A stretch of 64,000 nucleotides of DNA from Amycolatopsis balhimycina FH 1894 (GTDB taxonomy: Bacteria > Actinomycetota > Actinomycetes > Mycobacteriales > Pseudonocardiaceae). The stretch spans positions 10,243,508 through 10,307,507 of the forward strand of contig NZ_KB913037.1 in the NCBI RefSeq assembly GCF_000384295.1, written 5' to 3'. Of the stretch, positions 50,002 through 64,000 are shown piece by piece (within the stretch, counting starts at the first letter, position 1; every line of letters starts with the position of its first letter). Made by a program: the position numbers and the translations under genes. The notes under the pieces are model-generated. The model saw only the letters and a program-made list of their open reading frames with translations. It was not told where the DNA came from and ran no database searches.

Positions 50002-50205
50002 GTGCGTATTCTTCCGGCCCTCGGCGCGATCGCCACGGCGGTTCTCCTCCCGGTCCTCGCCGCCACCGCGGCCCAGGCCGCTCCCGCGGACACCCCCTGG
50101 GCAGTCTCATCCGACACCCCATGGGCGGCCGGCCCGGCGGACACCCCATGGGCGGCGCCGCTGGACACGCCGTGGGGCGCCACCTCTGCCGACACCCCGT
50201 GGTGA
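50002..50205 (+). CDS. Small secreted peptide with five DTPW repeats
   Basis: 67 residues from a GTG at 50002. Residues 1-26 are a Sec signal peptide (M-R-I-L-P-A-L-G, hydrophobic core, A-Q-A cleavage site). The mature 41 residues consist almost only of five D-T-P-W units at periods of 8, 9, 8 and 9 residues with small linkers (A-V-S-S, A-A-G-P-A, A-A-P-L, G-A-T-S-A), ending in W. There are no cysteines. The codons for the repeats differ (ccc tgg, cca tgg, ccg tgg), so the repeat is held at protein level. It could be a signal, a precursor cut into small peptides, or a wall-associated peptide; none can be shown. Divergent from the XRE/NB-ARC regulator, with the GATAAC array between. Confidence 0.7.
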   Translation: MRILPALGAIATAVLLPVLAATAAQAAPADTPWAVSSDTPWAAGPADTPWAAPLDTPWGATSADTPW

Positions 50206-56320: not shown

Positions 56321-57589
56321 GTGAGCGCCGCGCTGATCGTTCTCGTCGTGGTCCTGGTCGCCGTGCTGCTCGTGCGGCGGCACCGTCGCCGGCGCGTCGC
56401 CGCGGTGGTGGCCGGGCCGCCCGGCGGGATCCCGGCGTTCCGGATCGTGACGCTGGGCCTGCAGGGCTCGGGCAAGACCTTGCTGCTGACCGGGATCTAC
56501 CGCCGCCTGCAGACCCCGGGTGACCGCGGCTTCTACCTGCGCGTCCCGCACGAGCAGCTGATCGAGCTGAACCGGTGGTACCGCAAGGCGGCCGACGTCG
56601 ACGAGGAGTGGCCGCGCGGCACGACCCGCGGCGAGCTGCGTGAATTCGAGTTCAGCGTGATGGCCGACGTCGGCGGAGCGGCCGAGCCCGTGGTCAAGCT
56701 GGGCTACCTCGAGTACCCGGGTGAGCTGCTGACCGACCCGGACGCGCCGGGCTCGACCGCCCAGGCGAAGCTGCTGCAGGCGATCGCCGGTGCCGACGCG
56801 CTCGTCGGCATCATCGACGGCTTCCGCCTGCTGCAGGCCGAACAGGGCGACCAGCGCGGCGCGCTGATGCTCGAAGCCTCCCTCGACGCCATGATCAACG
56901 CGATGCTGCCGGTGCGCAGCCCGATCGTCTTCGTGATCACCAAGTGGGACCTGCTCGACCACCTGCACCCGGACGAGAACGAGCGCCTGCGGATCGTGCG
57001 CGACCGGCTGATGGCGACGCCGGGGTTCGCCGACCTCGTCAAGGTGCACAGCGCCCGGCGGATCGTGCGGCTGATCCCGGCCACCGCGGTCGGGCACGAC
57101 TTCGCCGTCTTCTCCGGCGGCATGGTCCGGAAGAAGCCGGACGGGCGGTTCCGGCCGGGGAACGTCGAAGCCGCGTTGTCGGTGGTGGTGCCGGACATCC
57201 TGCGCCAGACCGAAGTCGCCCTCGACCGCGCCACCCGCGAAGAGCTGCTCGCGGCCGCGCAACGGCGGCTGCGGATGGGCCCGGCCGAGGCACTCCGCAC
57301 GCTCGGCGCCCACCTCACGACGCACGCCGCGCGGGTGCTGGCGTCCGCGGTCGGCGCGGGCCTGATCGCCGAATCCGGCCTGTCGCTGCTGTTCGACACG
57401 CTCGGCCCGCACGAGGACTTCGCCGGGCGCGCCGACCGGCTGGCGCGGCTCGGCGAAGCCGACCGGCTGGCCGAGCACTACGTCCAGGCCCGGCGGCGGG
57501 TGGTGGGCGAGCTGCAGCGGCAGGTCGCGGTGCTCGAGGCGAAACTGCCCGTCTCCCGCCTCGGCGGCGACCGCTGGGGCGACTGGTGA
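56321..57589 (+). CDS. Membrane-anchored P-loop GTPase-like protein
   Basis: 422 residues. One N-terminal membrane helix (residues 3-19) is followed by a basic stop (R-R-H-R-R-R-R). A P-loop G-L-Q-G-S-G-K-T sits at 46-53, a G3-like Y-L-E-Y-P-G-E at 129-135 in place of D-x-x-G, and G4 T-K-W-D at 207-210. The C-terminal third is helical (R-R-L-R-M-G-P, A-D-R-L-A-R-L-G-E-A-D-R-L-A-E-H). It resembles the poorly known double-GTPase/TRAFAC-like group of actinomycetes. GTG at 56321 with GAGGAA upstream. The stop overlaps the next gene, a membrane protein, so the two probably form a complex. Confidence 0.7.
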   Translation: MSAALIVLVVVLVAVLLVRRHRRRRVAAVVAGPPGGIPAFRIVTLGLQGSGKTLLLTGIYRRLQTPGDRGFYLRVPHEQLIELNRWYRKAADVDEEWPRGTTRGELREFEFSVMADVGGAAEPVVKLGYLEYPGELLTDPDAPGSTAQAKLLQAIAGADALVGIIDGFRLLQAEQGDQRGALMLEASLDAMINAMLPVRSPIVFVITKWDLLDHLHPDENERLRIVRDRLMATPGFADLVKVHSARRIVRLIPATAVGHDFAVFSGGMVRKKPDGRFRPGNVEAALSVVVPDILRQTEVALDRATREELLAAAQRRLRMGPAEALRTLGAHLTTHAARVLASAVGAGLIAESGLSLLFDTLGPHEDFAGRADRLARLGEADRLAEHYVQARRRVVGELQRQVAVLEAKLPVSRLGGDRWGDW

Positions 57590-58251
57590 CGGGCCGGGCG
57601 TGGCCGTTCCTGGTCGCCCGCGGGCGGCGGCGCGGCTATTCGGCGCTGCTGGTCCCGGGCTTCCTGCGGGAGCACGGGTTCCTGGAGGCCACGGCGATCC
57701 CGCTGGACGACGTGCCTTCGCGCGCCGTGGCGACGCCGCACGGCGTGCTCGTCTGGGCCGAGCACGCGGTGACGGCGGCGGAGGCCCGCGGCGAACCTCG
57801 CGACGAGTACGGCCGTCCCCTCGTGCTGCTGCACGGCTTCCTGTGCCCGGACGGCGAGCCGGTGACGGCGTCCGCGGCCCTGGCCTGGACGACGACTGCG
57901 GCGCTCACGACGTACGGCCGGTTCCTCGCCGACGAGGAAGGCTTCCGGACGGACCGTTCGGAGCCGTTCCCGATCGAGGTCGCCGCGGTGGCGCGGCCGC
58001 GGGTCGCTCCGCCGGAAGAGCCCGCGCGGCCGGTGCGCGGCCTCGTGGGGGCGGGCGCCGCCGCGCTCGTCGTGGCCGGCGCGGTGGCCGCGGTGGTCGG
58101 CTTCGCCTCGGCCGGCGACGACGCCCCGGTGCTGTCCCCGTGCGCCCGCGACGTCGTCGAACTGACCGGCACGCCGACGGTTCCGGCCGCGACCTGCGTC
58201 CGGGACGGGAAGCCCGTGCCGTACTCGCTCCCGCCGTCGCGGCGGCCGTAG
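57586..58251 (+). CDS. Hypothetical single-pass membrane protein coupled to the GTPase-like gene
   Basis: 221 residues from a GTG overlapping the GTPase stop (GTGA). The first 150 residues form a soluble domain (G-R-A-W-P-F-L-V-A-R-G-R-R-R-G-Y, V-L-L-H-G-F-L-C-P-D-G). A membrane helix follows (L-V-G-A-G-A-A-A-L-V-V-A-G-A-V-A-A-V-V-G-F), then about 50 residues with two cysteines that would face outside. I do not recognise a family. Tight coupling suggests it is the membrane partner of the GTPase-like protein. Confidence 0.6.
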   Translation: MTGRAWPFLVARGRRRGYSALLVPGFLREHGFLEATAIPLDDVPSRAVATPHGVLVWAEHAVTAAEARGEPRDEYGRPLVLLHGFLCPDGEPVTASAALAWTTTAALTTYGRFLADEEGFRTDRSEPFPIEVAAVARPRVAPPEEPARPVRGLVGAGAAALVVAGAVAAVVGFASAGDDAPVLSPCARDVVELTGTPTVPAATCVRDGKPVPYSLPPSRRP

Positions 58252-58256
58252 CGACC

Positions 58257-58272
58257 GTGGCGGAACCGCCAC
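58257..58272. terminator. Small terminator hairpin between convergent genes
   Basis: GTGGCGG (58257-58263) and CCGCCAC (58266-58272), perfect arms, between the membrane protein stop (58251) and the end of the DUF6294-like gene (58280). Confidence 0.5.
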
Positions 58273-58279
58273 ACTGCGG

Positions 58280-58681
58280 TCAGCAGCTCGAATACATCTT
58301 CAGGTGCGCGATGTGCCCCCACAGGGCGACGTCGAAGGTCGCCCAGGCGCGGAACCGGTAGTCTTCCGCGCTGCTCGGCATGGTCCGCACGAACTTGCGC
58401 CAGTCCCCGTCGACCGGGTGCTCGGTGGTGAGTGAACCCAGGATCGCCCCGCCGGCGTCGTGCAGGTCGACGTGCCGCACCACCCAGACGTCGTGGTCCT
58501 CCCGGCTGGTTACGGTTGCGTCGAAGGCGGCGGTCCCGTCGGGGAACAGCGTCCACTTGGCACCCGCCAGCATCGTGCCGGCGCCCCTCCGGATCGTCCC
58601 CCAGCCGAACTTCCAAGGTGTCCAGCCGGTGAGCCGCTCCGCCGAGGCGCTCGCCGCCTGCACGATGACCGACGGGTCCAT
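58280..58681 (-). CDS. DUF6294-like small protein, last gene of the RiPP operon
   Basis: 133 residues. A compact pattern, W-K-F-G-W-G-T-I-R-R-G-A-G-T-M, W-T-L-F-P-D-G-T-A-A-F-D-A-T-V-T-S, D-V-W-V-V-R, then W-A-T-F-D-V-A-L-W and a final C, resembles small actinomycete proteins grouped as DUF6294 (from memory). Its function is unknown; the repeating aromatic/Gly pattern suggests a beta-rich fold. There is no signal peptide. It follows the radical SAM gene by 68 bases in the same direction, so it could be a leader-binding protein, immunity factor or unrelated passenger. Confidence 0.6.
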   Translation of the reverse strand: MDPSVIVQAASASAERLTGWTPWKFGWGTIRRGAGTMLAGAKWTLFPDGTAAFDATVTSREDHDVWVVRHVDLHDAGGAILGSLTTEHPVDGDWRKFVRTMPSSAEDYRFRAWATFDVALWGHIAHLKMYSSC

Positions 58682-58749
58682 GTCACGCGCCTTCCGCTCG
58701 TCCCGGTGTTCCCGACGAACAGAGGCGCGGACGACCGGCTTGATACCGG

Positions 58750-60576
58750 TCACCGGCCGGGTGTCGCGGGCAGGGCGAGGGAGAGGGCGAGGGTGCCGTC
58801 GAGGAACATCAGCCCGCGTTCGCCGAACCGCCGGAAAGCGCCTTCGACCGCGGAAACTCCCACCGCGAGGCCGAGCTCCCGGTGCACGGCCGCGGCGGTG
58901 CGGGGGCGGTCCACACAGGCCAGGTAGATCTCGGCGAGGGTGTCGTGGAACGTGTGGGTACCGCGGGTCCCGGCGTGCCTGCCGTCGTAGATCTGAAGGA
59001 ACCCGGGAGCGCTGCGGTACAGCAGCACCGGCGGTTCTGTCTCCCAGGCCGCGGACCACGCCGAAACGGCGTCCGCCAGCGGGGCGTAGACCTCCGGTGG
59101 CAGCTCGTTCTCCGGCTCGTAGCCGAAGAAGTAGGCGATTCGCCGAATATCCACTGTGGACGGATAGACGTGCCGGTAGCTCGGCTCGGGCTCCCGGGCC
59201 CGCAAGGGGAACCGGCCGGGCTGGGTGAACAGCGGGCTGAAGCGCTCCAGCCACAGCCGGTTCGCGCCGGTCGGCGGCTGGAGGTGGACCAAGTGCGGGA
59301 CGACGGCCGCTTGCGCGGCGTACTCGTCGGCGGGCTCGCCGGGGAAACCCCAGAGGATGTTCCAGGCGACGGCGATCCCGTAGTACCGGGCCCAGCGCAG
59401 GAAGTTGACGTTCTGCGCGGCCCGGACGCCCTTGTCCATCAGCCGGAGCACCTCGGAGCTGAGCGACTCCAGGCCGGGCTGCAGCTCGGTGACGCCCGCC
59501 TGGGCGAGGAGCTTCAGCTGGGCGCGGGTCAGGTTCGCCTTGACCTCGTAGAAGATCCGGTACTCCCGGCCGGCCTCGGCCAACGCCGGCACCAGCGTCT
59601 TGAGGTAGCCCGGCTCCAGGATGTTGTCGACCGCGGCGAACCGGAAGGTGCGGTGCCGCCGCGCCTGCCGGTCCAGCTCACCGAGCACCCGGGACGGCGA
59701 TTTCGCGCGGAACCGCATGGTGGTTCCGTTGAGCCCGCAGAACGTGCAGTGGTGCTTGGCGCCCCACCAGCACCCGCGGGCCGACTCGAACGGAAGCGCG
59801 ATGTGGCCGGTCGGCAGCCCGAGCCGGGCCGCCCGTTCGAAGTACTCGTCGTAGTCCGGCACGGGCAGGTCGTCGAGCCGGTCGTGCGGCGCCTCGGACG
59901 GCGTCGCGACGACCTCGTCGCCGGCGCGCCGGGCGACGCCGGGGATCCCGCCCGGGTCCTTGTCGTTGGCCAGTGCGCCCAGCAGGCGCGGGAACGCGAC
60001 GTCACCCTCGCCGAGCACGGCGAAGTCGACGCACTCGATCGACCGGACCAGCTCCAGGCCCATCTCGCCCTCGAAGTTGGCCCCGCCGAACACGGTGACG
60101 ACGTCGGGATCGCGCTCCTTGAGCAGACGGGCGAGCGCGAACGACGCCGTGTTCTGCTGGAACGTCGAGCTGAAACAGACCACGCGGCTGCCGGCGAGTT
60201 CCCCGGCCACGGTGTCGAGGAACGCGGGAACGTCGTGCTCCCGAACGGTCGTCAGCCATTCCCGCGCCGGCAGCGAGTCGTCCAAGTAGGACAGTTCGGC
60301 GCCGAGTTCGGTGAACAGCTTCCCGTCCGGATCCGGCGCCGCCTCCCCGAACGCCGCGACGGAGAACAGCCAGTCACCCAGTTGCCGGCCGCGGTGCTCG
60401 GCCAGCGCCCGGTAGCGGTCCGCCCCGATCCGCACCGCGAAGTCGAGGTTCAGGTGCAGCGTCCGCACCGGGAGCCCGTGCTGTTCCGCGATCGCCTTGA
60501 GCAGCCCGAGCTGGATGGACGGCCGGTCGGCTTCGAGGAACGGCATGGACACGAGAACGGCGGGTGAAGCGGTCAT
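58750..60576 (-). CDS. B12-binding radical SAM enzyme, RiPP maturation type
   Basis: 608 residues. The N-terminal 200 residues form a cobalamin-binding-like domain (V-L-V-S-M-P-F, D-R-P-S-I-Q-L-G-L-L-K, F-S-S-T-F-Q-Q-N, V-F-G-G-A-N-F-E-G-E-M-G). The radical SAM cluster is C269-x7-C277-x2-C280 within R-G-C-W-W-G-A-K-H-H-C-T-F-C-G, the unusual spacing and W-W-G signature of the family known as RiPP maturation radical SAM protein 1, related to B12-dependent C-methyltransferases. Later I-L-W-G-F-P-G-E and a C-terminal helical region follow. Probable reaction: C-methylation or another radical change on a peptide substrate. The 101-aa precursor candidate lies 19 bases upstream. ATG at 60576. Confidence 0.88.
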   Translation of the reverse strand: MTASPAVLVSMPFLEADRPSIQLGLLKAIAEQHGLPVRTLHLNLDFAVRIGADRYRALAEHRGRQLGDWLFSVAAFGEAAPDPDGKLFTELGAELSYLDDSLPAREWLTTVREHDVPAFLDTVAGELAGSRVVCFSSTFQQNTASFALARLLKERDPDVVTVFGGANFEGEMGLELVRSIECVDFAVLGEGDVAFPRLLGALANDKDPGGIPGVARRAGDEVVATPSEAPHDRLDDLPVPDYDEYFERAARLGLPTGHIALPFESARGCWWGAKHHCTFCGLNGTTMRFRAKSPSRVLGELDRQARRHRTFRFAAVDNILEPGYLKTLVPALAEAGREYRIFYEVKANLTRAQLKLLAQAGVTELQPGLESLSSEVLRLMDKGVRAAQNVNFLRWARYYGIAVAWNILWGFPGEPADEYAAQAAVVPHLVHLQPPTGANRLWLERFSPLFTQPGRFPLRAREPEPSYRHVYPSTVDIRRIAYFFGYEPENELPPEVYAPLADAVSAWSAAWETEPPVLLYRSAPGFLQIYDGRHAGTRGTHTFHDTLAEIYLACVDRPRTAAAVHRELGLAVGVSAVEGAFRRFGERGLMFLDGTLALSLALPATPGR

Positions 60577-60595
60577 GGCCGGGATACCGCCTTGC

Positions 60596-60901
60596 TCACG
60601 GCTTCACCGTATAGGGTCTGATGGCGGCGTTGATCGAGTCGTTGATCGAGGCGTTGATGGAGGTGTTGAGGGAGGCTTGGATAAGCGGGGGCAGGGTCCA
60701 GTTGCCGTGCGAATACGCCGTGATCAAATCCGCTTGTTCCGGCGTGAAGGATTCGTTGAACCCGGCCTTGAGATCTTCCTTTTGCGCGGTCAAAATCCAG
60801 GCGATCCAAAGGATGGCGGACAAGAACTTGCGCTCATCCTCGTCCTCCAGGGTGCTCTTGAAGGTTTGGACGTACTGGCTGAACTTGACGACGTCGAGCA
60901 T
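60596..60901 (-). CDS. Candidate RiPP precursor with S-(L/I)-N-x tetrad core
   Basis: 101 residues from the ATG at 60901, preceded by AGGAGGGG. Residues 1-70 look like a folded leader: acidic/helical start, a hydrophobic helix at 26-39 (F-L-S-A-I-L-W-I-A-W-I-L-T-A), then F-T-P-E-Q-A-D-L-I-T-A-Y-S-H-G. Residues 77-92 are four tandem tetrads, S-L-N-T, S-I-N-A, S-I-N-D, S-I-N-A, followed by A-I-R-P and Y-T-V-K-P. This periodic Asn/Ile core next to a B12 radical SAM gene recalls proteusins such as polytheonamide, where repeated residues are methylated or epimerised. There is no obvious G-G or A-x-A cleavage site. It could instead be a conserved small protein unrelated to the enzyme. Confidence 0.7.
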   Translation of the reverse strand: MLDVVKFSQYVQTFKSTLEDEDERKFLSAILWIAWILTAQKEDLKAGFNESFTPEQADLITAYSHGNWTLPPLIQASLNTSINASINDSINAAIRPYTVKP

Positions 60902-60921
60902 TTGCCCCTCCTGTCGGGTCA

Positions 60922-63693
60922 CTATCCACTGTGTACTGATGCCAGCCTCGCGCGCACCTCGTCCGCTTCGGGATGGGCGAGGTGCGCGAGGATGTCGTGG
61001 GCCTGCTGCCACCCGGTGCGGGCGGACTCGACATCGCCCAGGTTGCGGCGGATGTTCGCGAGGTCGATGAGAACCCGGGCCTCGATCACCCGGTTCCCGT
61101 TGTGGTGCATGAGTGCCAGTGCCTTCTCGTAGCAGGCGATCGCCCGGGAATGCTCGCCGAGCTGATTGTGGGCGTAGCCGATGCTGTGCCAGCTCTGCGC
61201 CGCGCCGTCCTGATCGCCGAGCAGCGTCTGCAGGTCGAGCGCCCGCTGGCAGTACTCGATGGCCGAGGTGTGCTCGCCGAGCAGGGTGTGGAACCAGCCG
61301 ACGGCGTTGAGCGCCGTCGCCTGGCCTGCCTGGTGTTCGGCCGCGCGAAACAGCTCCAGCGCCCGTTCGGAGTGCGAGAGCGCGTCCGCGACGGCCCCTC
61401 GTCGATCGAGCAGCCAGGCGAACTGACGATGTGCGTAGGCTTGTCCCACGGCGTCATCGCTCGCGCTGTACAGGGTCAGCGCGAGCCGAAGATCGTCCTC
61501 GGCTTCGGCGTGCCTGCCGAACCTGCCGTGCGTGACGCCCCGATGCAGGTGCGCGAACGCCTGCTTGCGCTGGTCGCCGAGGCGGTGCGCGGCGGCCAGC
61601 GCCGCCGTGAGCACGTCGCTCTCGTCATGCCAATGCCCGCGCCTCGTCAGAAACCGCTGCATCGACCAGGCGAGCTCCCAGACCCGGGCGTCGAACTCGG
61701 CGTCCGCATGGACGGCCTGAAGCAGTACCCGGTGCTCGGCCTCGAACCAGGCCAGCGCCTGCCGGGCGTCGACGATCCGTTCCGGTTCGGCTCCCTCGGG
61801 CAACGGGGTCAGCGTGGGCGGCACTTCGAGCCGGGGATCGATGAACCCGTCGGCGTGGTAGGCGCTGTGGGCGTAGTGGCCGAGCATGCGGTGGACGGCG
61901 GCGGCGCGCTCGGCGGGGGACTCCTCTTCGCCGGCCAGTTCGGCGGCGTAGGCGCGCAGCAGGTCGTGCAGCGTGTAGCGGCCGGGGGCGTGCTCGGCGA
62001 TCAGGTGCGCGTGGGCGAGCTCGGTCAGGAGCGCCCGCGTGCGGCCGGTGGGCAGGCCGGCCGTACTCGCCGCCGCGCGGGTGCCGACGTCCGGGCCGGG
62101 GTGCAGGCCGAAGAGCCGGAACAGGCGGGCCGCCGCGGGGTCCAGCCGCAGGTACGACCAGGAGAACACCGCCCGCGGGTCGGTCGCTTCGTCGGCGGCG
62201 GCGAATTCGTCCAGGCCACGTGCGTCCCGCAGCTGCCCGGCCAGCGCGGCCAGGCCGAACCCGGGGTGGATCGCCGCGCGGGCCGCCACCACGGCCAGCG
62301 CCAGCGGGAGGTGGGCGCACAGGCCGATGATCTCGTCGGCCGCGGCGGGTTCGGCCGCCATCCGGTCCGCGCCGATCCGGCGGCGGAGCATCGCACGGGC
62401 CTCCGCGGTGTCGAGGAGGTCGACGGGGATGGGCTGCGCCCCGTCCGTGACCAGGCCGGTGAGCTGGTCACGGCTGGTCACGAGCACCACGCTGCCCGGC
62501 GCCCCGGGCAGCAGCGGACGCACCTGCCCGGCGTCGCGGGCGTTGTCCAGCACGACCAGGACGCGCCGGTTCGCCAGCAGGGTCCGGTACAAGCCGACCT
62601 GCGCTTCCAAGGCGCGAGGGATCCGGTCGCCCGGTACTTCGAGGGCTTCGAGGAACCCGCGGACCGCCTCGGCCGGGGGCACCGGCGAACCGGTCGGATC
62701 GAAGCCGCGCAGGTTCACGTACAGCTGGCCACCGGGGAACTCGACGGCGACCGAGTGTGCCCAGTGGACGGCGAGCGCGGTCTTGCCGACTCCGGCGGTG
62801 CCCGACAGGACGACGATCCGCGCGGCGGGCGACGGCTCGCCCCTGACCTCGTCGAGGCGGCGCAACGCACTCTCGCGACCCGCGAAACCGGGGGTGTCGG
62901 GCGGCAGCTGGGCCGGGGCGGCGGCCGGTGCGGCGCTGGGCGCGGACGGCAGCTCGCCCCGCAGGAGCGCGGCGTGCAGCGTGCGCAGTTCGGGACCCGG
63001 ATCGGTGCCGAGCGCGTCGGCCAGCCGCCGCCGGACCGCGGCGTAGCGGTCGACGGCCTCCGCGTCGCGCCCGGCGGCGTGCAGCGCGCGCATGAGCAGC
63101 GCTTCGAGCGGTTCCGCGAGCGGGTACTCCGCGGCCAGCTCGGGCATCGCGGCGATGACCGCGCCGGGCCGGCCGAGCCGCAGCTCCAGCTCGCCCCAGC
63201 GGACGGCCGCGTCGAGCCGGCGCCGGTGCCAGGTCGTGCGGACCCGGTCGGCCCAGTCGCCGTGGATGCCGGCCAGCGGGGCACCTCGCCAGGCGAGCAG
63301 GGCCTCGGCCAGCGCCGCGGCCCGGTCGGCGTCGGCGGCCCGGATATCGTTCCCGGCTTCGACCAATTGTGCGAACCGGTGCAGATCGACCGCGGCGGGG
63401 TCGATTTCCAGCACGTAACCCGCGCTTTTTCGGAGGACGCCGGCCGTGGTGCCGTCCAGCTCGTTGACCCGTTCGAGTAGCCGGCGTATTCGGCTCAGGT
63501 GGGAATACACCACATTGCGCGCTTCCTCGGGCGGGTCGTCACCCCAAACGCGGTCGATGAGTGTCTCGATCGGAACCGGGCGTCCGGCATCGACGGCCAA
63601 TGCCGCGAGAATCATCTGCTGACGTGGAGTTCCGACGTCCAGCGGCCGCCCCGCGACGCGGAGCTGCACCTCCCCGGACAGCAGAAACTCCAT
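60922..63693 (-). CDS. SARP/AfsR-type regulator of the RiPP operon
   Basis: 923 residues. SARP winged helix and BTAD (residues 1-255; L-L-S-G-E-V-Q-L, N-V-V-Y-S-H-L-S-R-I-R-R-L-L), NB-ARC with Walker A G-T-A-G-V-G-K-T and L-V-V-L-D-N-A-R, winged-helix/helical linker, and C-terminal TPRs (A-I-E-Y-C-Q-R-A-L-D-L-Q, A-I-A-C-Y-E-K-A-L-A-L). The stop at 60922 is 20 bases before the precursor start, so it is the first gene of the precursor-radical SAM-DUF6294 operon and likely its activator. A direct repeat with 11-bp period lies in the divergent gap (63752-63770). Confidence 0.9.
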   Translation of the reverse strand: MEFLLSGEVQLRVAGRPLDVGTPRQQMILAALAVDAGRPVPIETLIDRVWGDDPPEEARNVVYSHLSRIRRLLERVNELDGTTAGVLRKSAGYVLEIDPAAVDLHRFAQLVEAGNDIRAADADRAAALAEALLAWRGAPLAGIHGDWADRVRTTWHRRRLDAAVRWGELELRLGRPGAVIAAMPELAAEYPLAEPLEALLMRALHAAGRDAEAVDRYAAVRRRLADALGTDPGPELRTLHAALLRGELPSAPSAAPAAAPAQLPPDTPGFAGRESALRRLDEVRGEPSPAARIVVLSGTAGVGKTALAVHWAHSVAVEFPGGQLYVNLRGFDPTGSPVPPAEAVRGFLEALEVPGDRIPRALEAQVGLYRTLLANRRVLVVLDNARDAGQVRPLLPGAPGSVVLVTSRDQLTGLVTDGAQPIPVDLLDTAEARAMLRRRIGADRMAAEPAAADEIIGLCAHLPLALAVVAARAAIHPGFGLAALAGQLRDARGLDEFAAADEATDPRAVFSWSYLRLDPAAARLFRLFGLHPGPDVGTRAAASTAGLPTGRTRALLTELAHAHLIAEHAPGRYTLHDLLRAYAAELAGEEESPAERAAAVHRMLGHYAHSAYHADGFIDPRLEVPPTLTPLPEGAEPERIVDARQALAWFEAEHRVLLQAVHADAEFDARVWELAWSMQRFLTRRGHWHDESDVLTAALAAAHRLGDQRKQAFAHLHRGVTHGRFGRHAEAEDDLRLALTLYSASDDAVGQAYAHRQFAWLLDRRGAVADALSHSERALELFRAAEHQAGQATALNAVGWFHTLLGEHTSAIEYCQRALDLQTLLGDQDGAAQSWHSIGYAHNQLGEHSRAIACYEKALALMHHNGNRVIEARVLIDLANIRRNLGDVESARTGWQQAHDILAHLAHPEADEVRARLASVHSG

Positions 63694-63828: not shown

Positions 63829-64000
63829 ATGCAGGACGACTCGACGGCGCCATTGCTGGAAAATGCCGCGCGGGGTGCCGAATGGGCTTGGCGCGACCTG
63901 GTCGCGCGCTATTCTTCGCTGATCCACTCGGTGTGCCGGCAGTACCGGATCGGCGACGCGGACGCCCAGGACATCAGCGGCGCGGTGTGGCTGCGGCTCG
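63829..64000 (+). CDS. ECF-type RNA polymerase sigma factor, N-terminal fragment
   Basis: 57 codons up to the window edge, from an ATG with GGGGAGGG upstream. The sequence E-W-A-W-R-D-L-V-A-R-Y-S-S-L-I-H-S-V-C-R-Q-Y-R-I, then D-A-Q-D-I-S-G-A-V-W-L-R-L, is region 2 of a sigma-70 ECF factor (core binding and -10 recognition). Region 4 is beyond the edge. Divergent from the SARP regulator and possibly controlled through the repeats at 63752-63770. Confidence 0.85.
   Translation, partial: MQDDSTAPLLENAARGAEWAWRDLVARYSSLIHSVCRQYRIGDADAQDISGAVWLRL

Follow-up and report, generated by a model that had tools for sequence, protein, structure and literature searches.

PoyC, which with PoyB belongs to the B12-dependent radical S-adenosylmethionine (rSAM) enzymes of the polytheonamide (proteusin) pathway, is reported to carry a Cx7Cx2C motif and to act by Cβ-methylation, with polytheonamide sites at Ile3 and Val 5, 10 and 21 (PMC11285071). 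The pairing of a B12-rSAM enzyme with a DUF5825 protein is reported to C-methylate the clavusporins (PMC12257519). In the pheganomycin-family locus of a Streptomyces globosus plasmid (H1/L170), an enzyme of the TIGR03975 family adjoins a tiny annotated precursor that contains SNVKD twice and ends in SNVKDIGIVSASNVKD. Here, a four-gene cassette is described from a 64,000-nucleotide stretch of Amycolatopsis balhimycina FH 1894 (contig NZ_KB913037.1, positions 10,243,508 to 10,307,507; hereafter the window), in which the gene for a 101-residue protein directly precedes that for another TIGR03975 enzyme. The best reading is that the cassette represents a new precursor family of ribosomally synthesised and post-translationally modified peptides (RiPPs), served by a known enzyme family as maturase and recurring in many actinobacteria. 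The relevant features are the following.

60596..60901, minus strand: candidate RiPP precursor of 101 residues (P0001), 19 bases 5′ of the rSAM open reading frame (ORF)
60731..60901, minus strand: putative leader region, residues 1–57, ending in a conserved F-xx-SFTPEQ
60626..60673, minus strand: four tandem S-(L/I)-N-x units, residues 77–92, in the hypervariable tail
60905..60912, minus strand: Shine-Dalgarno stretch AGGAGGGG of the 101-residue gene, read from the sequence
58750..60576, minus strand: B12-type rSAM enzyme of the TIGR03975 family, 608 residues
59737..59772, minus strand: Cx7Cx2C iron-sulfur motif CWWGAKHHCTFC, residues 269–280 of the enzyme
58777..59031, minus strand: C-terminal winged-helix domain resembling a RiPP recognition element (RRE), about residues 516–600, from a structure model
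60922..63693, minus strand: Streptomyces antibiotic regulatory protein (SARP)/AfsR-type regulator (BTAD, NB-ARC, TPR), 923 residues from the ATG at 63693
58280..58681, minus strand: DUF6294 protein of 133 residues, modelled as a beta-sandwich
63829..64000, plus strand: start of a divergent sigma-70-like gene 5′ of the SARP gene, extending beyond the window (position computed from L024)

The preliminary description of this DNA had assigned the enzyme to the B12-dependent RiPP maturation family, and the assignment is borne out by a match of 634.2 bits to TIGR03975 (‘RiPP maturation radical SAM C-methyltransferase’, rSAM_ocin_1; cut-off 281.85) that spans model positions 2–606 of 606. The Radical_SAM domain matches Pfam at 57.2 bits, and ahead of this core lies a B12-binding domain (PF02310, residues 95–198; E 1.3e-6) whose 28.7 bits fall short of the 32.1 cut-off. 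Cys 269, 277 and 280 form the Cx7Cx2C motif and are invariant across eight aligned enzymes, and in a structure model the C-terminal part folds as an RRE-like winged helix. The likeness to the polytheonamide enzymes that had been proposed holds for the Cx7Cx2C motif as reported for PoyC (PMC11285071), for the B12-rSAM type and for the presence of Ile/Val in the putative substrate. Unlike the polytheonamide system, the cassette has no NHLP leader, and none of its four genes is epimerase-like.

The pheganomycin-family enzyme is 45.5% identical to that of the window; its locus, unlike the cassette, carries a peptide ligase, an amidinotransferase and dpg genes, and the phegan_RiPP_fam precursor model matches P0014 but not P0001. 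Whereas the clavusporin type pairs its B12-rSAM enzyme with DUF5825, the cassette holds no separate DUF5825 gene: a Pfam search of the genes called at 56321–63693 found none, and a DUF5825-like stretch inside the enzyme itself scores 18.3 bits, under the cut-off of 25. In Streptomyces clavuligerus, a TIGR03975 enzyme sits between an unannotated 39-codon ORF (VGITITVPF; L169:4803–4922) and a DUF5825 gene, and it is a guess that this is the clavusporin locus. Within TIGR03975, the window enzyme is a full-length member set apart by its SARP-linked actinobacterial clade and by a small-gene family of its own.

The small gene and the enzyme occur together. In a search of 150 genomes the small protein was present in eight, including that of A. 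balhimycina, all of them Amycolatopsis. Enzymes at least 68% identical to that of the window were found at nine loci in eight of 80 Amycolatopsis genomes, while three further genomes of the same 80 have an enzyme at 40–45% identity. A broad precursor profile, scored at 64 candidate places per genome, recovered the same nine loci and one weak match across the 80, and gave no match in the three genomes with the 40–45% enzyme; a profile of the eight close small proteins, with every candidate scored, returned the identical set of eight genomes. Among 397 genomes of the order, with 13 candidates scored in most of those listed, this profile gave one further true case (G400), with the gene order SARP, small gene, rSAM, DUF6294, and one chance match. 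By gene calls, the order is the same in each of the eight Amycolatopsis genomes with the small protein. The link between small protein and enzyme, initially drawn from position, is thus strengthened, as within the genus the small gene is not widespread without the rSAM gene.

Beyond the genus, a scan of genome contigs with the enzyme alignment gave 282 relatives, for which 77 loci were returned; with the window and three paralogue loci from its own genome these make 81 loci, from which 8,898 ORFs (40–449 residues) were taken. A hidden Markov model (HMM) started from these small proteins of Amycolatopsis, eight in number, and iterated over the ORFs converged on 39 matches at 38 loci, 35 of them upstream of the rSAM gene with gaps of up to 210 bases and four downstream within 500 bases; all 81 loci were chosen through the rSAM gene, so this result demonstrates adjacency, not absence elsewhere. 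A SARP gene lies just upstream at 38 of the 81 loci, a precursor match is found at 38, both at 32, and DUF6294 at eight. In a tree of 80 enzymes, the window enzyme falls in a 39-row, wholly actinobacterial clade (SH-aLRT 99) comprising 31 rows with SARP and precursor, five with SARP only and three with precursor only; in the five, the slot holds an ORF beyond the reach of the HMM. Under a permissive rule, an ORF of 60–170 codons occupies the slot at 36/36 of the loci given (36 of the 77). The 42 small proteins compared match nothing in Pfam at E 0.01 and, at the same threshold, no NCBIfam family besides two weak Tat-target model matches; for P0001, a search at E 1 yields no NCBIfam match. A neighbouring branch of the enzyme tree holds the Myxococcota loci L065 and L068, which differ in having an MQPVMGP-type repeat ORF upstream and no SARP just upstream. 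These repeat ORFs (L065:2187–2582 and L068:7491–7955), just upstream of a TIGR03975-like enzyme, are likely multi-core precursors. One record titled Rhodococcus rhodnii (L089) nests within Kibdelosporangium (SH-aLRT 97) with the same gene order, and is perhaps mislabelled or transferred. Scattered peptides with leader-like N-termini and differing tails (L122, L124, L125 in G801; L123 in G826), from genomes that lack TIGR03975, form another precursor-like family.

The two genes diverge at very different rates. Over the 28 Amycolatopsis pairs, mean identity is 84% for the rSAM enzyme, 80% for the SARP, 72% for DUF6294, 39% for the leader and 35% for the tail; compared with its seven relatives, the window enzyme is 80–93% identical and the small protein 27–40%, and with the closest relative the values are 93% for the enzyme, 44% for the leader and 26% for the tail. 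This gap indicates that the substrate-like gene evolves far faster than its neighbours. As judged from these sequences, a slow enzyme beside a fast small protein is the pattern that would be expected of a diversifying precursor. The check first proposed for homologues of the small protein had two outcomes: the gene does track the rSAM family, but the tails of the relatives carry other motifs and the leader, expected to be conserved, is poorly so. Invariant in all eight Amycolatopsis proteins are F48, S51–P54, Q56 and P71, and past the invariant Pro the residue after Ile is always polar.

In the window protein, the 101-residue ORF, its ribosome-binding site (AGGAGG, 5 bases ahead of the ATG) and the four tandem tetrads were found as originally described. 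The units read SLNT, SINA, SIND and SINA, flanked by LIQA and AIRP. The last 31 residues contain nine lag-4 identities, a number matched by 6/100,000 shuffles of this tail and attained at the best of lags 2–8 in 33/100,000, while four tandem S-(I/L)-N-x units arose in none of 100,000; the four-residue periodicity is not due to chance. The three SIN units differ from one another by 1–2 of 12 bases, and this near-identity at the DNA level makes them resemble duplications.

As a signature of the class, the tetrad did not hold, since S-I-N tetrads occur in one of the 42 small proteins, that of the window. The tails of close relatives end in FIKADFIKPHFIR (L015), LIKASSIRAGTRP and similar sequences, and others contain RYIKPRYIKP (L083) or AIIRS...AIIRSG (L090). 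The dipeptide [IV][RKN], a pattern picked, like the next, after the tails had been inspected, occurs 17 times in the eight Amycolatopsis tails, compared with 4.7 in shuffles (0/5000 as high); for the remaining 23 tails that could be defined the count is 11, compared with 8.0 (825/5000), which is not significant, with 11 of the 42 tails omitted as their start was undefined by the rule used. A repeated I/V-polar dipeptide is present in the last 35 residues of 12/42 proteins (shuffle mean 3.9, 0/3000 as high) and, with the window protein left aside, of 11/41 (2/3000 as high); in the first 45 residues it is found in 5/42, at chance level (shuffle mean 4.5).

Under the proposed mechanism, residues 1 to about 57 of the 101-residue precursor would serve as leader and the remainder would hold the core, S-I-N-x repeats included. 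Leader binding may fall to the RRE-like domain at the C-terminus of the enzyme, whereupon the cobalamin and [4Fe-4S] domains would pass methyl groups from S-adenosylmethionine via methylcobalamin to core carbons that are not activated, the likeliest target being Cβ of the Ile residues that recur at regular spacing. Leader removal and export would fall to genes outside the cassette, and expression may be controlled by the SARP and perhaps also by the divergent sigma factor. That the 101-residue protein is the substrate of the rSAM enzyme is judged very probable, and the proposal as a whole, a leader-bound precursor whose core is C-methylated by the cassette enzyme, is considered probable. Ile C-methylation as the exact site, suggested by the Cx7Cx2C motif and Cβ-methylation of PoyC together with the V/I-rich or repeated peptides beside other TIGR03975 enzymes, is put forward tentatively and judged slightly short of an even chance.

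The choice of target residue leads to the nearest rival, in which the enzyme does act on the small protein but modifies a polar residue (Asn, Arg, Lys or Gln) or performs chemistry other than methylation. It would account for the polar residue that invariably follows Ile past the conserved Pro, and a glutamine C-methyltransferase model does exist in NCBIfam within the wider B12 rSAM superfamily, although its match to the window enzyme is weak (49.1 bits, cut-off 360). The identity of the polar residue varies, however, and the Cx7Cx2C motif with recurring Ile/Val suits Cβ-methylation of the type described for PoyC, so that this rival is regarded as unlikely. Several points weigh against the small protein being a substrate at all. 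Its leader part diverges as fast as its tail, which is unusual for a RiPP and is the chief oddity of the cassette; no protease or exporter was recognised among the nearby genes that were compared with families; and weak leader-like peptides occur in three actinobacterial genomes without TIGR03975. These would fit a protein that assists or regulates the enzyme, whose true substrate would then be encoded elsewhere. Yet the partner of an 84%-identical enzyme would hardly be expected to fall to less than half that identity, tail lengths vary and repeats are frequent, and an annotated RiPP precursor adjoins another TIGR03975 enzyme; a helper role is accordingly thought quite improbable. The repeats and the B12 rSAM enzyme are also reminiscent of polytheonamide, but an epimerised proteusin of that kind is poorly supported and highly improbable: besides the missing NCBIfam match of P0001, the leader_NHLP model TIGR03793 has no match in the A. 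balhimycina genome at E 1, and a simple Cys-motif flag marked no second rSAM motif among the genes called in L024. Taken together, the evidence supports the original interpretation in part, in its reading of the cassette as a RiPP locus.

As first described, the cassette genes run along the minus strand from the SARP/AfsR-type regulator through the 101-residue ORF and the rSAM enzyme to the DUF6294 protein, with gaps of 20, 19 and 68 bases; Pfam supports the outer two (BTAD, 106.8 bits; DUF6294, 64.1 bits against a cut-off of 34.9). A gene with a similar start was called at the position of the sigma-70-like gene in 7/8 Amycolatopsis loci, the family search having covered the L024 copy alone. 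At L017:11193–12026, a Peptidase-M8-like gene with HEMGH, a possible leader protease, lies beside the cassette; counting similar starts in L014, L018, L019 and L020, such a gene occurs in 5/8 Amycolatopsis genomes (the L017 copy alone was searched), and the L017 peptidase has no homologue in the genome of the window at E 1e-5.

Related loci are present in the same genome. A second SARP–small ORF–TIGR03975 cassette (L021:8133–10292, G000:C1 about 2.999 Mb) encodes a 94-residue small protein and an enzyme 68% identical to that of the window; DUF6294 was not found in L021, and the 94-residue protein has a tail, SHIGVTGTD, similar to the (I/V)GVTGT present in peptides encoded downstream at L071 and L074. 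At L023:9172–11947, a TIGR03975 enzyme with a DUF5825 partner accompanies a 74-residue peptide with two ALTVT(N/P)LAE repeats, recalling the clavusporin pairing. At L022 (G000:C1 about 0.42 Mb), the TIGR03975 enzyme is flanked by a SARP-like gene and, by eye, by genes resembling those for carrier proteins, non-ribosomal peptide synthetases and polyketide synthases, and perhaps acts on a carrier-bound substrate. The window also contains, at 50002–50205 on the plus strand, a 67-codon ORF that begins like a signal sequence and contains five DTPW repeats; it adjoins a large ORF, SARP-like by eye, on the opposite strand and matches no NCBIfam family above cut-off.

In the open-licence literature searched, most subscription papers lying outside the search, there is no mention of ‘RiPP maturation radical SAM’ or DUF6294, TIGR03975 and DUF5825 are each named in two papers, and radical SAM, SARP and RiPP appear together in one bottromycin paper only. 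A term search of the decRiPPter main text (PMC7794033) found neither SARP nor Amycolatopsis.

The fullest form of the proposal, which is rather unlikely to hold in every part, is that a PoyC-like enzyme methylates regularly spaced beta-branched residues, here one in every four as (S-[beta-methyl-Ile]-N-x)n, in an unrecognised actinobacterial RiPP family whose leader and core diversify between species while the enzyme stays near-fixed, so that one enzyme would handle very different sequences. Enzymes that are 93% identical face tails as unlike as SINASINDSIN and FIKADFIKPHFIR, and the 39-row clade offers an enzyme/substrate panel for how B12 radical SAM methyltransferases select unreactive carbons. 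Beta-methyl amino acids are rare, and this cassette family may yield peptides that contain them.
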